DNA of 64,000 nt. Origin: Planctomycetota bacterium (lineage in GTDB: Bacteria; Planctomycetota; B15-G4; SIAN01). The notes under the pieces are model-generated. The model did not search any database. It had not been told where the DNA came from and worked only from the letters and a program-made list of their open reading frames with translations. A program made the translations under genes and the position numbers. Location of the stretch: the NCBI GenBank assembly GCA_028289345.1, contig JANQQL010000050.1, forward strand, positions 514,370-578,369, read 5' to 3'. Below, piece after piece: positions 32,010-44,457 of the stretch. The first letter of the stretch is position 1; each line of letters starts with the position of its first letter.

Positions 32010-33974
32010 TTACGGGTTGCCAGTCACGCTCACGTGGTCGATGACCAGCGTCACCTGGGAGCCCGGGAGGGCCAGGTTGTCGCCAGCCGGACGGTGGCCG
32101 CGAGCACGCAGCAGGACGCGACCGTCACCGTTCATGTAATCGGCGGTGTCGATGCCGGTCACGGTGTTGGTGGTGTCGAAGCCGGTCATGGCCCAGGTTC
32201 CGAGATCGTCGAATTCGCCGGTGTTCCAGTTGTAGGCCTGGAGGTTGGCGGCGAGATCGGCGCCCGAGCGACCGCCTTCGAAAGTGGCGTCGAAGGTGGT
32301 GGAACCGGTGTCGATGTCGAAGCCGATCTCGGCCGAGGACACCGAAGCGGAGCGCAGCCACAAGCGATCGTCGTCGGAGGTTTCCAGGGACAGGATGTCA
32401 CCGCGAGTTCGCCAGGTGTTGCCGGCCTGACGCATGTCGGTGACCGGACCCGGAGCGACCTGCATCACGCCACCGGCCGGGATGCCGGCCAGGCTGACGG
32501 TGGAGCCATCGGCGAAGGTGACATCGAAGTCGACGGTGGTTTCGTCGCCGAGCCCGAAGTGAGCTTCGGCCGGGATCTGAGCCATGTAGCTGGAACCGAC
32601 GCCGATGTGGCGCATCTGGTTGTTGAAGGAGGTGCTCAGGTTGACCACGGAGCCGATGCCGCGGGTGTTGGTTCCGGTCTGACGCGGCTGGATGACGATG
32701 TGGTTGCCCATCGGCAGGGAATTGTCGAGGGGCTGGTTGTCCCACAGGCGGATGGTGCCGCCGGCGGCGTTGGTCGTCTGCAGAAGGTCCAGGTCCCCGT
32801 CACGGTCGAAGTCGACCGAGATCAGGCTGACACCCCAGTCGAAGTCCTGGATGCCTGCCTGTTTGGCGAGGTCGCGGGTGAACCACTTCGGCCCGCTGCC
32901 GCGGTTCATGTAGAAGCGGGTGGAGTCAATGTTGGCGCCGAAACCGTTGGTCGCGGCCAGGTCGATGTAACCGTCAAGGTCGGCGTCGAAGAAGGTGCAA
33001 CCCCAACCCCAGCCGCCGTCCTCGATGCCGAGGGACTCGGAAACTTCCGTGAAGGACACCGTGGAGCCGACGGTGTCGTTGCGCATCAGGATGTTGTGCT
33101 CGGGACCGTTGAAGATGTTGGTCACGAAGATGTCCATCTTGCCGTCGTGGTTGTAGTCGCCGAGCGCCATGCCCATGTCGTTCATGGAGTTGTTCGCGTT
33201 GGCAGCAATCGAGATGTCGGTGAAGGTGCCGTCGCCGTCATTCATCCACAGGCGGTTTTCGTCGAAGTCGACGGCCTGGTACAGGTCCATCCAGCCGTCA
33301 CCGTTGAAGTCGTAGAAGGTCGGCTGCCATTGGGTGTTGGCGATGCTGGTGCGAACGCCGCTGGACACCGAGACGTCGGTGAAGGTGCTGTCGCCATCGT
33401 TCAAGAACATGTAGCCAAGGGCGGTCCCGCCGTTGTCCCACATGGCCGCATAGAAATCGAGGAAGCCGTCATTGTTGATGTCGGCCACGTCGATGCCGGC
33501 GCGGTTGAAACCCACGTCCAGGATCTCGAGGCCGGCGAAGCTGGTCGAGTCGGTGAAGACCAAGCCGGCTTGCTGGCGGTAGATCTTGAAAGAAGTCGTG
33601 GCGGAAGTTTCGTTGACGGTCAGAAGGTCGAGGCGACCGTCACCGGTGTAGTCGAACCAGACACCGAGGCGCACGCCGGAGGTGTCGTCCAGTCCCGCGG
33701 CAGCGGCCTGGTCGATGAAGGTGCCGTCCCCTTGGTTCACGAGGAATCGACAAGCGGTGCCGTCCTTGTGGGGGAAGAACAGGTCCGTGTCTCCGTCGTT
33801 GTCGACGTCGGCGGCGGCAACGCCGTTCCCGTGTTTGTCAGACGTGTTGGGTGCGATTCCTCGATCACCCGCGATGTCGACGAACTTGAACGGCATGCGG
33901 CGAATCTGCGCGTTGGCGCTGTTCGCCATGACGGCCAGGCCAGTCAGGCCCGCGATCACAAAACTCAGTCGCAT
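32010..33974 (-). CDS. CRTAC1 family secreted FG-GAP/ASPIC protein (copy 1)
   Basis: A 654-aa secreted protein. Signal peptide MRLSFVIAGLTGLAVMANSA. About eight VCBS/FG-GAP calcium loops follow (DVDNDGDTDLFF, DYTGDGRLDLL, DINNDGFLDFY, DFNGDGWMDLY, DYNHDGKMDIF, DADLDGYIDLA, DFDRDGDLDLL). Then a UnbV/ASPIC domain near residues 445-505 with GSSYMAQIPAEAHFGLG and the DG loop FADGSTVSL. A C-terminal beta-sandwich of about 130 residues looks like a carbohydrate-binding or discoidin-like module. Probably extracellular or surface attached. It is a clear paralogue of the next gene upstream. Confidence 0.88.
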   Translation of the reverse strand: MRLSFVIAGLTGLAVMANSANAQIRRMPFKFVDIAGDRGIAPNTSDKHGNGVAAADVDNDGDTDLFFPHKDGTACRFLVNQGDGTFIDQAAAAGLDDTSGVRLGVWFDYTGDGRLDLLTVNETSATTSFKIYRQQAGLVFTDSTSFAGLEILDVGFNRAGIDVADINNDGFLDFYAAMWDNGGTALGYMFLNDGDSTFTDVSVSSGVRTSIANTQWQPTFYDFNGDGWMDLYQAVDFDENRLWMNDGDGTFTDISIAANANNSMNDMGMALGDYNHDGKMDIFVTNIFNGPEHNILMRNDTVGSTVSFTEVSESLGIEDGGWGWGCTFFDADLDGYIDLAATNGFGANIDSTRFYMNRGSGPKWFTRDLAKQAGIQDFDWGVSLISVDFDRDGDLDLLQTTNAAGGTIRLWDNQPLDNSLPMGNHIVIQPRQTGTNTRGIGSVVNLSTSFNNQMRHIGVGSSYMAQIPAEAHFGLGDETTVDFDVTFADGSTVSLAGIPAGGVMQVAPGPVTDMRQAGNTWRTRGDILSLETSDDDRLWLRSASVSSAEIGFDIDTGSTTFDATFEGGRSGADLAANLQAYNWNTGEFDDLGTWAMTGFDTTNTVTGIDTADYMNGDGRVLLRARGHRPAGDNLALPGSQVTLVIDHVSVTGNP

Positions 33975-34506
33975 GAGTGAACACTCCAGGTGGGCAATGG
34001 ATCAGTGTCGTTCCGTCCAACGGAGCAAACACCGACTCGCGCCGCTTTTCCGAACGGAACGAGTTCCAGGGAACGTTGATTCTTCTCCTCCAAAGAGCCG
34101 TCAAGCGACCCGCGGAGACCTTTCGACTTCTTCTCAAAGTGCCGGTGCGTGTGCTCAAACAGCGCGACACCTCGGCATTGGAGATAGCCTCCAAGGACGC
34201 CGGCACCACTCCCCTTTTACTCAGGTTCTCCCAGAAAAATAGGCTTTCGGAGAGATGGTGCGGAATGCGCTTGTGGAGGTTTTCGCGGTCCTCTGTCGAC
34301 TTCCTGCGTTCCTCCTCGATTCTTCCCGGAGGGGCCCGCAGACCGCGACAAATTCATCGCAGGAGAGGTCGTGTTCGAGCTTTGTGAAATCTCTCGAAAG
34401 ACAGGGGCTGCGGCCCCTTCGATCGCCTGCGAGTTTCGCGGATCGCCCCGAATCCCGGGCGCTCGACCGGGGGTCGAACGCCGGGCCGGCTGCTTCGCAC
34501 ATCGCC
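33975..34506. other. Intergenic region between the CRTAC1 paralogues
   Basis: A 532-base gap on the minus-strand path between two paralogous genes. It holds a possible weak terminator for the upstream paralogue (34403-34418, stem AGGGGC/GCCCCT) and a GC-rich inverted repeat around 34460-34490. No gene is recognised, and no clear dispersed-repeat end is seen. Confidence 0.4.
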
Positions 34507-36480
34507 TCACTCGGCGACGACCATCACCTCCAAGTGGTCGAGGCTGATCGACTCGACGCTCATGTCTGCGAACGGCGACGCTTGACGCCGAGCATCAATG
34601 CGCAGCTCCACTCGCCCGTCGCCGCGCAGGTACTTGGTCGCGTCGAGTCCGGTCCACTGGAGCGTCGTGTCGGTGCTGCCAACGGCTTGGGATCCAGCGC
34701 TTTCGTAGGTTCCCGTGCTGTGGTTCTTCAGCAGGAGTTGCGCTTTCATGTCGTCCGACGAGCGAGCTTCCAGGGTGACGGTCAACGTGGAACCGACGGC
34801 GGCTCCGGCCTCCCAAAGAACGGTGGCGAGAGCACCACTGGGCCCCTTGGCAGCCCAGCGCACATCGTCGGAGTCTCGCAACGCGAGAACTCCGCCAGCG
34901 GTCAGGGATCCCCGTTCGAGTTGGAAGTAGGTCAGCGGGGGCGGCGCGATCTCGACGATCCCATCCAGAGGAACCGACGGAACGGAAACAGACTGCCCGT
35001 CGGGGAAGTTGACGCTGACGTCCGCCGCGGTGGGAACCGTGCCAAAGCCGAAGCAGGCCTCGGCCGGTTCCTGGCCCAAACAACTGATTCCTGCGGTGAT
35101 CACGCGGATTTGGGACGAGGTTCCTGCTTGTGCCGTGATCTCGGCACCGATCGCTCGACGGTTGGCGCCAGGCATGCGCGGCTTCACGACCAGAAACCGT
35201 CCCACTTCACTGGTCGGCACCCAGGAGCGTTGTCGATTCTCCAGCAACCGAATCGTGTCATTGAGCGTCGTCTGCAACAGATCTTGATCGCCGTCCCGAT
35301 CGTAGTCGAAGGCCACCAGACAAGAGCCCCACAGGTCGTCGTCCAGCCCGACTCCTGCGGCCAGATCCTTGGTGTACCAGCGGGGACCGCGACCTCGGTT
35401 CATGAAGAAGCGAGTGCGATCGTCCAGCCAGGCTTGCTGGGAGAAACCGTTGGTGGCTGCCAGATCCAGATCCCCGTCATTGTCCGCATCGAAGAACGTG
35501 CAGCCCCAGCCCCAGGCACCATCCTCCACCCCGTTCTGGTGAGAGACCTCGGTGAACGAGACCGAACCGCTGTTGCTCTCGTTGCGCAGCAGCACGTTGT
35601 GCTTGCCGCCTTGATGGATGTTGGTCAAGTAGACATCGAAGTCGCCGTCTTGGTCGAAGTCTCCTAGGGCCTGACCCATGTCGTTGAACAGAATGTCGGC
35701 CCCACACGCTGCGGCAATGTCCACGAAGGTGTTGTCGGTCTGATTGATCCACAGGTGGTTCTCGGTGAAATCCACCGCCACAGAAATGTCCAACCAACCG
35801 TCGCCGTTGAAGTCGTACATCACCGGCTGCCACTGGGCTGGTCCCGCGCCGGTCATGATGCCGCTCGACAAGGAAATGTCGGTGAACGTGCCATCGCTAT
35901 CGTTCAGGAACAGGTGATGATCGCTTGACGGAGACTCGTTGTCCCACATGGCGCAGTAGATGTCGAGATTGCCGTCTTGGTTGATGTCGCCGGCGCACAG
36001 GCCGCCGCGATGAAGTCCCGAGCTACGGACATGAACTCCGGCACTGGCGGTGACGTCGGTGAAGAGGAACCCGGGATCTTGACGGTGCAAGCGGTAGGAA
36101 GTCGTATCGCCCGGAATGTCGTTGGCGGTGAACAGGTCGAGATCGCCATCCCCGTCGGTATCGATCCACAGCGCCACGCGGTCTCCGGTTTCCAAATCGA
36201 GTCCCGCTGCCGCGGCGACCTCGACGAAGTGACCGCCCTCGTTGCGATACAACTGGGCAGGGGTCTTGTCGTCGTTCGGCAGGTAGAAATCGAGGTCTCC
36301 GTCATCGTCGATGTCGGCAACCGCGACCCCGGCGGCCATTCCTGGAGGAGATGCGTAGAACTGGAGACCGGCCGTCGAAGTCACGTCGACGAACTCGAAC
36401 GTGGGCAGTGTGATTTGGGCCATGGCGTGATGACTGGTCAGGCAAAGACATGCCACGGCGACGCGGATCTTGAGGCCCAT
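34507..36480 (-). CDS. CRTAC1 family secreted FG-GAP/ASPIC protein (copy 2)
   Basis: A 657-aa secreted protein, colinear with copy 1. Signal peptide ends near HHAMAQ. VCBS loops: DIDDDGDLDFYL, DTDGDGDLDLF, DINQDGNLDIY, DFNGDGWLDIS, DFDQDGDFDVY, DADNDGDLDLA, DYDRDGDQDLL. Shared landmarks with copy 1 include VEDGAWGWGCTFFDAD, MNRGRGPRWYTKDLA and the UnbV/ASPIC motif GFGTVPTAADV. The strong GGAGGAAAG site before ATG 36480 fixes the start. The two genes may be cotranscribed, although a 532-base gap separates them. Function unknown. Confidence 0.88.
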   Translation of the reverse strand: MGLKIRVAVACLCLTSHHAMAQITLPTFEFVDVTSTAGLQFYASPPGMAAGVAVADIDDDGDLDFYLPNDDKTPAQLYRNEGGHFVEVAAAAGLDLETGDRVALWIDTDGDGDLDLFTANDIPGDTTSYRLHRQDPGFLFTDVTASAGVHVRSSGLHRGGLCAGDINQDGNLDIYCAMWDNESPSSDHHLFLNDSDGTFTDISLSSGIMTGAGPAQWQPVMYDFNGDGWLDISVAVDFTENHLWINQTDNTFVDIAAACGADILFNDMGQALGDFDQDGDFDVYLTNIHQGGKHNVLLRNESNSGSVSFTEVSHQNGVEDGAWGWGCTFFDADNDGDLDLAATNGFSQQAWLDDRTRFFMNRGRGPRWYTKDLAAGVGLDDDLWGSCLVAFDYDRDGDQDLLQTTLNDTIRLLENRQRSWVPTSEVGRFLVVKPRMPGANRRAIGAEITAQAGTSSQIRVITAGISCLGQEPAEACFGFGTVPTAADVSVNFPDGQSVSVPSVPLDGIVEIAPPPLTYFQLERGSLTAGGVLALRDSDDVRWAAKGPSGALATVLWEAGAAVGSTLTVTLEARSSDDMKAQLLLKNHSTGTYESAGSQAVGSTDTTLQWTGLDATKYLRGDGRVELRIDARRQASPFADMSVESISLDHLEVMVVAE

Positions 36481-40598: not shown

Positions 40599-42500
<1,902 letters not shown>

Positions 42501-42876: not shown

Positions 42877-43977
42877 ATGAAACTCTTTGCCGTGGTTCCC
42901 CTGTTCGCGTTTCTTTCTCCCGCGACCCTCGCGCTCCCATCGTTCGGCACGAGCAGCCATGCGGGGCCAGCGCTTCGTGTGGTGGCGCCGACAAGCGAGG
43001 AAGAGGCAGGAGAAGACGCGTCGGCCTTCGATCTCGAGAAGCACTTCGACGACAACGCTCGGCGGGCAGCGCCGCGGGATTCGTTCCCCGTGTTCGATCA
43101 CCCGACCATGCTGACGGCAGAAAAGGCCGAGAGCGGGGCGTCTCCCGTCGTTCGCGACCGGGATCTGATCATCGGGGTGGCTCATGACGGAGAAGCCAAG
43201 GCCTATCCGATTCCGGTCATGGGAACCCATGAGCTCGGCAACGACACGGTCGGAGGGGTGCCCATCGGCGTCAGCTGGTGACCGCTTTGCCAAACCGCCA
43301 TCGTGTATGAGCGGACCCTCGACGACGACCAAGTGCTGACCCTGGGCCACGAAGGACTGCTGTACGAAAACTCCTTCGTCTTCTACGACAAGGAAACCGA
43401 CTCCCTGTGGATCCATGTCACCGCCGAAGCGGTGAAGGGACCGTTGAAGGGGAAGAGCCTGAAGATCTTCCCCTCCACAGTGACCACCTGGGAAGCCTGG
43501 AAGAACCGCTATCCCGACACCCTGGTGCTCGGGGGCGATCGCAACGAAGGCTTCATGGGAACCTTCACCGGCCTGAAGGAAGATCAGCACAAGAACTTCG
43601 GCTTGGCGGTGTTCCGGCCGGGGTTCGTCAAGCTGTATCCCTACGAAGTCTTGGAGAGTGCTCCAATCTTGGAGGACGACTTCTTCGGGGACTCGGTGGT
43701 GGTGTCCTATTCCTCCAGTGCCGGAGTGGCACGGGTCTGGGGCCGCGACGTCGATGGCGAGCCCATGCACTTCGAGATGGTGGACTCCAGTGAATCCGAA
43801 CTCGTGTTCAAGGACATCGACACCGATTCCGTCTGGGACGGCCTGACCGGTACCTGCATCGAGGGAGCCTTTGAAGGCGAAACCCTGCGCGACTACATTT
43901 GTTACCCCATCCTCACCGACCGCTTCCAGGCCTTCTATCCGAAGGCTCCGGTTTACGAGCGCTCGGTGGGAGAGTAG
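42877..43977 (+). CDS. DUF3179 protein, probable selenoprotein (in-frame TGA at codon 135)
   Basis: A 366-aa predicted exported protein if TGA 43279-43281 is read through. Signal peptide MKLFAVVPLFAFLSPATLAL. DUF3179 landmarks before the TGA: LIIGVAHDGEAKAYPIPVMG, HELGNDTVGGVPIGVSW; after it, in the same frame: PLCQTAIVYERT, GLLYENSFVFYDKETDSLW, FPSTVTTWEAW and DGLTGTCIEGAFEGETLRDY. The family normally has CPLC here, so the TGA replaces the first Cys, giving U135-P-L-C138. No other lesion is present across 1.1 kb. A SECIS-like hairpin follows. Alternatives: a nonsense mutation or a base error, leaving a 134-aa fragment and a second frame starting at GTG 43303. The family's function is unknown; a redox-active selenol/thiol pair is inferred. 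Confidence 0.8.
43295..43314 (+). promoter_or_regulatory. Candidate bacterial SECIS hairpin
   Basis: Lower stem CCGC (43295-43298) with GCGG (43311-43314), one bulged A (43310), upper stem CAT (43299-43301) with ATG (43307-43309), loop CGTGT (43302-43306). The loop starts 20 nt after the TGA and has G as its second base. Both fit the known bacterial SECIS rules (loop about 16-37 nt from UGA, a G in the first two loop bases). A competing pairing exists (CCGCT 43282-43286 with AGCGG 43310-43314). Folding was done by eye. Confidence 0.55.
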
Positions 43978-44058: not shown

Positions 44059-44457
44059 CTACGCGAAGAGCGGCGCGGTGTCGGTGTCCAGCCGGACGGA
44101 GGTGACGAGCCCGTCTTCGTCGCGGTCCGTGAAGGCCACCGCACGCAGCGTGACCTGCTTTCCGTCGTGCCTTTGGTCGTGGTTCAAGGCTTCCAGGACG
44201 AACGACTGGTCGGTGCCGTAGAGGTTGCGCAGATCGTGCTCCACGCTGGCGAATGACTTCCAGTATTCCGAAAGGCCGGCAAGGATGGCGTCACGGCCTT
44301 TGACGGGATCGGCATTGTTCATCTGCATCTCGACCTCCGCCGCCAGGAAGGTCCCGTAGGAGCCCACACCCTGTTGGTCGACCGCTTCGAGGGATCGCAG
44401 GTATCACGGGAAGGCGTCGGTCGAGAGCTGGTTGGTCCTGAGATCAGCAGTTTTCAT
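44059..44457 (-). CDS. SnoaL-like (NTF2-fold) protein with in-frame TGA at codon 18
   Basis: A 132-aa NTF2/SnoaL_2-fold protein if TGA 44406-44404 is read through. The frame opens with MKTADLRTNQLSTDAFP, then the TGA, then YLRSLEAVDQQGVGSYGTFL. The helix-loop continues to EVEMQMNNADPVKGRDAI and the sheet to VTLRAVAFTDRDEDGLVTSV. An AGGAGG site lies 4 bases before ATG 44457, so translation clearly starts upstream of the TGA. The helix that spans the TGA is part of the normal fold. A weak hairpin (TCGA/TCGA, loop AGCGG) begins 13 nt and its loop 17 nt after the TGA. Either a second selenocysteine gene or an inactivated gene (CGA to TGA would suffice). Function unknown. Confidence 0.55.

Follow-up and report, generated by a model that had tools for sequence, protein, structure and literature searches.

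The window analysed here, a stretch of 64,000 nucleotides from a Planctomycetota bacterium (contig JANQQL010000050.1), carries a gene of the DUF3179 family (PF11376) that encodes two repeats of the domain (Table 1). An earlier note on this DNA had described the reading frame as continuous but for one TGA, and had proposed that this TGA encodes selenocysteine (Sec) in place of the first Cys of a CxxC motif. The frame is as described: its single internal stop is the TGA at codon 135, in the context GVSW-TGA-PLCQTAIVYERT. Against PF11376 (cut-off 27) the read-through protein reaches 212.6 bits, and in a profile search of the genome the portions on either side of the TGA both exceed the cut-off in the same frame.

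The gene is flanked by two genes on the opposite strand, which encode an S9 peptidase (40599–42500) and a SnoaL-like protein (44059–44367). TGA serves as an ordinary stop in this region; ten open reading frames of the window were scanned, eight exceeded the Pfam cut-off, and six of these eight end in TGA. Elsewhere in the window (32010–36480) lie two adjacent minus-strand genes with FG-GAP repeats and an ASPIC/UnbV domain. In a Pfam scan of 92 proteins flanking TGA-type loci, part of a set of 149 open reading frames of 130–700 aa, no family occurred in more than four, so no conserved partner was seen.

Three DUF3179 genes occur in the source genome, an assembly of 50 contigs totalling 8.4 Mb and 90% complete: that of the window; L003 on contig C12 (G000:C12:23455–23919), which has TGA at the same column in a U-x-x-V form (VAVLW-TGA-TLVK); and L001 on contig C3, which has Cys there. 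The profile match of L003 is limited to positions 1–148 of PF11376 and is followed by a different C-terminal part. L045 and L051, in a genome of the same family (G002:C23:156802–160503), show four tandem DUF3179 matches, with one TGA in three of them.

Table 1. Features of the DUF3179 locus, numbered from the first base of the window
Feature	Position	Strand	Details and basis
DUF3179 gene, very probable selenoprotein	42877–43977	+	366 codons and final TAG, TGA read through; translation, PF11376 profile
Probable export signal	42877–42945	+	Hydrophobic N-terminus following Lys, end approximate; translation, simple rule
First DUF3179 repeat	43075–43551	+	PF11376 positions 1–152, contains the Sec site; genome profile search
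His118-Glu119 codons	43228–43233	+	Each conserved in 70 of 75 rows; 75-row alignment
Predicted Sec codon 135 (TGA)	43279–43281	+	Frame translation and aligned homologues
Cys138 codon	43288–43290	+	Second residue of U-x-x-C; translation and aligned homologues
Putative SECIS hairpin	43295–43314	+	7 bp and one bulged A, loop CGUGU at 43302–43306, 20 nt past TGA; folding, covariation, bSECIS geometry
Second DUF3179 repeat	43606–43965	+	Matches PF11376 positions 30–150; genome profile search

The TGA column in homologues

DUF3179 loci were drawn from 58 relatives (20 with DUF3179), from 392 phylum genomes (138 with DUF3179; loci taken at most 30 at a time) and from the GTDB species collection (60 loci). 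The 123 aligned hits that cover the column reduce to 108 distinct contexts, that is, distinct 40-residue stretches; tandem genes are among them, as is at least one second repeat, the Ser row of L112. The column holds TGA in 59 contexts, Cys in 41, His in three, Ser in two, and Gly, Asn and Asp in one each, proportions that do not give the natural frequency of TGA and Cys forms since the GTDB loci were found with peptide patterns, one of which holds the motif. The homologue search suggested in the earlier note thus yielded genes of both kinds, and the placing of the TGA at the family's first Cys column was correct: an in-frame UGA is aligned with Cys in homologues, as in a selenoprotein. A profile search in relatives, which is free of the pattern bias, found one TGA in 17 of 35 rows and TAG in one, the rows being matches and not genes. 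Across the 59 TGA domains (16,336 codons) there was no further in-frame TGA; as frames had been cut at TAA or TAG before this count, it is informative for TGA alone.

In-frame TAG was seen in two places. In L037 (G003:C64), a Cys-type gene, it stands where AYP has its conserved Tyr, 25 codons upstream of the Cys column, and a DUF3179 match in genome G245 has two TAG codons; these frames may be broken genes or something else.

A Cys at the +3 position is kept in 53 of the 59 TGA contexts and missing from the other six; it is missing from seven of the 41 Cys contexts and has also been lost in the three His contexts and the Asn context. The titles of TGA-type members name Binatia, Deltaproteobacteria, SAR324, Nitrospinota, Planctomycetota, Neomarinimicrobiota and Chloroflexi, the last with Dehalococcoidia, so that the TGA type spans at least six phylum-level groups. 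On a 75-row tree made quickly from few columns, with 29 of 72 inner branches open, the column changed state six times when TGA and Cys alone were considered and ten times with all three states; the window gene falls inside a 20-row set that is entirely TGA (SH-aLRT 99).

The Sec pathway in the source genome

The earlier note had named absence of the Sec pathway as evidence against its reading. The source genome has selB (L005), selA (L021) and selD (L022), each above its curated cut-off, and ARAGORN reports a tRNA-Sec with anticodon tca (selC; L013). All four genes therefore occur in one genome, as is looked for in bacteria with selenoproteins. Nor, among the points examined, did we find any other observation that the note had listed as contrary. 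The selD gene (G000:C15:965–1891), which adjoins selA, also shows a single in-frame TGA in the search and may likewise encode a selenoprotein.

Among genomes with a TGA-form DUF3179 in the matches listed, of which there are at least 52, tRNA-Sec was found in 43 of 52, as compared with 52 of 86 genomes that have DUF3179 and no TGA form listed (Fisher p 0.008), a set that includes two genomes, G024 and G049, which are of the TGA type by the profile search of relatives. Genomes without DUF3179 had tRNA-Sec in 135 of 254 cases. The nine TGA-type genomes in which tRNA-Sec was not found are drafts that are 77–91% complete, searched with strict filters. We take the association as supporting evidence for Sec coding, not as proof of it.

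A covarying hairpin past the TGA codon

In the published bSECIS model (PMC13188914), the hairpin has a loop of 3–9 nt with G in its first two bases and a stem of 4–16 bp, lies 16–37 nt from the UGA, and has a minimum free energy of −7.5 kcal/mol or lower. A search for such an element just past the TGA had been proposed in the earlier note, and on geometry it succeeded: spacing, loop and stem of the window hairpin all lie within the model. Its energy is marginal, at −7.2 kcal/mol as a 27-nt fragment (z −2.07), slightly short of the published value, and a 42-nt stretch of the window favours a different fold. Rfam at gathering thresholds gave no match in the window or in L001, L002 and L003.

The same geometry is present in 58 of 59 TGA genes, as against 21 of 41 Cys genes and three of eight others; with an energy of −7 kcal/mol or lower in addition, the counts are 41, nine and two, respectively. 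Spacing of exactly 20 nt together with the loop CGUGU occurs in 41 of the 59 TGA genes. When compared with synonymous shuffles, a SECIS-like hairpin was found in 52 of 59 TGA genes (30.1 expected) and in 20 of 41 Cys genes (17.7 expected), while folding energy, judged in the same way, did not clearly separate the two classes (p 0.10).

Covariation was assessed in 57 distinct TGA stretches (59 rows), with offsets 16–22 from the TGA pairing with 28–34 in a 7-bp stem. In these, 86.2% of cells were paired, against at most 45.6% in slid versions of the stem, and two-sided changes numbered 64, against 18.0 in shuffles (sd 3.0), none of 500 shuffles reaching as high. The 41 Cys stretches, taken over the same columns as a control, were 50.2% paired (shuffles 48.6%; slid versions at most 45.6%) and had 22 two-sided changes against 19.2 in shuffles, and so displayed no stem covariation.

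Export, conserved residues and predicted structure

A hydrophobic N-terminus, scored by a simple rule in those genes whose upstream stop lies inside the locus, was present in 32 of the 39 TGA-type genes, 18 of the 25 Cys-type genes and two of the four others. From its translated N-terminus, the window protein is probably exported. Beyond His118 and Glu119, the residues most conserved in the 75-row alignment are Asp171 and Trp178 (72 of 75 each) and Gly188 (75 of 75).

AlphaFold models, computed with Cys in place of Sec, were confident, with a mean pLDDT of 92.3 for the two-repeat protein and 96.4 for the first repeat. A PDB structure search with these models gave no match at E ≤ 0.001. Among the best 50 Foldseek matches, each one with a probability of at least 0.5 was Rieske-type; the two-repeat model had 28 such matches, with a best E of 0.031, and the first-repeat model had 12, with E between 0.26 and 1.6. 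Where a title is silent, Rieske-type is what we take the match to be. The TM-scores of these matches are below 0.6 and the E-values are not significant. Comparison by hhalign with 25 Rieske domains, selected from 30 loci by a CxH/CxxHG pattern, gave probabilities of 2.9% for DUF3179 (112 sequences) and 0.9% for the first repeat (75 rows), no PDB chain was related in sequence at E up to 1, no NCBIfam model matches the window protein, and its translation lacks the CxH...CxxH ligand set of the Rieske [2Fe-2S] cluster. With no profile support and no Fe–S ligand motif, the Rieske fold is a lead only. In BFVD, the sole match at E ≤ 0.001 was to DUF3179 model m42a5f9f5c781, from the Indivirus ILV1 giant-virus protein A0A1V0SD44 (E 3.4e-8).

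Discussion

The Sec pathway of the source genome, the TGA column common to many phyla and the hairpin that covaries past TGA codons, but not past the Cys codons of homologues, support Sec coding at 43279. These comparisons bear out the reading of the gene as a selenoprotein; from them we infer that Sec is actually incorporated, and consider it very probable that the UGA is decoded in this way, an estimate that concerns Sec coding and not the function of the protein.

TGA has been reassigned in some bacteria, and its decoding here as Trp, Cys or another ordinary residue, by a changed code or by plain read-through, would explain the open frame; we reject this, leaving it virtually no credence, on the grounds that six of the eight Pfam-supported genes nearby end in TGA, that selA, selB, selD and tRNA-Sec are present, and that the stem is specific to TGA genes. 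A pseudogene, or a sequencing or assembly error, would require a single base change to turn a Cys codon into TGA, and the TAG in L037 indicates that an in-frame stop can occur elsewhere in this family in relatives. Nevertheless, an accident of one gene would not put TGA at one column of 59 distinct contexts spread over many phyla, leave the frame otherwise intact, or be accompanied by a covarying hairpin confined to TGA genes. We reject this explanation too, as very improbable.

More serious is the proposal that the protein is still a selenoprotein but that Sec135, a position held by Cys or His in relatives, binds a metal and does not act as a redox nucleophile. The His and Asn contexts at the column, the conserved His at position 118 and the Rieske-type metal proteins among the structural matches speak for this proposal, and the His rows and the Rieske lead keep it a serious rival. 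The window protein lacks the ligand set of Rieske proteins and hhalign finds no sequence link to them; the +3 Cys is lost along with the first residue in the His and Asn contexts, and a redox function is presumed for most selenoprotein families (PMC9312934). On balance we consider a metal-ligand role improbable.

The redox reading fares better. The earlier note had held that a UxxC form would speak for redox chemistry. UxxC is indeed the usual form, and retention of the +3 Cys points to redox; the TGA contexts that lack the second Cys, together with the tolerance of His, Asn, Asp, Ser and Gly at the column, count against it, so that CxxC-type redox is likely without being forced. Since both TGA and Cys contexts can lack the +3 Cys, we regard the first residue as essential and the second as a resolving thiol that is not always needed. 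SelB with Sec-tRNA-Sec would recognize the hairpin and insert Sec at residue 135, where Sec135 and Cys138 would form a U-x-x-C site in a two-repeat, probably exported protein. The reactive selenol would then act in a redox reaction outside the cytoplasm, and Cys138 would resolve it through a selenenyl sulfide; His118-Glu119 may assist, and another thiol would serve in members that lack the second Cys. We give this extracytoplasmic selenol redox role, the likeliest function, about an even chance. More tentatively, DUF3179 may be a tandem, exported, cluster-less Rieske-like fold whose first repeat bears the reactive Sec or Cys on a loop; it would occur in two-residue (UxxC) and one-residue (UxxA/V/L) forms, and Sec and Cys would have replaced one another repeatedly in many phyla. 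We regard this wider picture as possible but doubtful.

Natural exchange of Sec and Cys marks position 135 as a firm candidate for the reactive residue in a family without an assigned function, and the family-specific hairpin reveals TGA-type genes where plain frame reading ends at TGA. One TGA-type member (L107) lies in the complete genome of Candidatus Lucifugimonas marina JH1073, in which Sec incorporation may be directly testable if the strain can be grown.

The earlier note knew of no described Sec-containing DUF3179 protein. The family is in fact tabulated as a selenoprotein family, with motif UxxC/T, in two reviews (PMC9312934; PMC13188914), and its discovery at the family level is therefore not new. 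The first credits the entry to its reference 63 (Zhang and Gladyshev, 2007; Olavius algarvensis symbiont) and the second gives its reference 60. A DUF3179 protein is also named within a gene list in PMC9230427. The consulted portions of these three papers contain no functional description of DUF3179, and those of PMC2398784 and PMC4807772 contain nothing on it. The phylum breadth, the covarying hairpin, the UxxA/V/L forms and the fold lead are absent from the consulted portions of this literature, and may still have been published. What is added here is the breadth over at least six phylum-level groups, the conserved SECIS, the forms without a second Cys, the likely export and the weak Rieske-fold lead.

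The window gene shares PF11376 and Sec in UxxC with the listed selenoprotein family, whose entries, one table row each, do not include the hairpin, phylum spread and UxxA/V/L forms analysed here. Cys-type DUF3179 proteins, such as that encoded by L001 in the source genome, belong to the same family and have Cys in place of Sec at the same column; unlike the TGA type, they have no covarying hairpin past the Cys codon. Rieske-fold proteins (ferredoxins, NirD and the Rieske domains of oxygenases) may resemble the DUF3179 models in structure, as suggested by Foldseek probability; DUF3179 differs from them in having no CxH/CxxH and no profile support, and the E-values of the resemblance are not significant.
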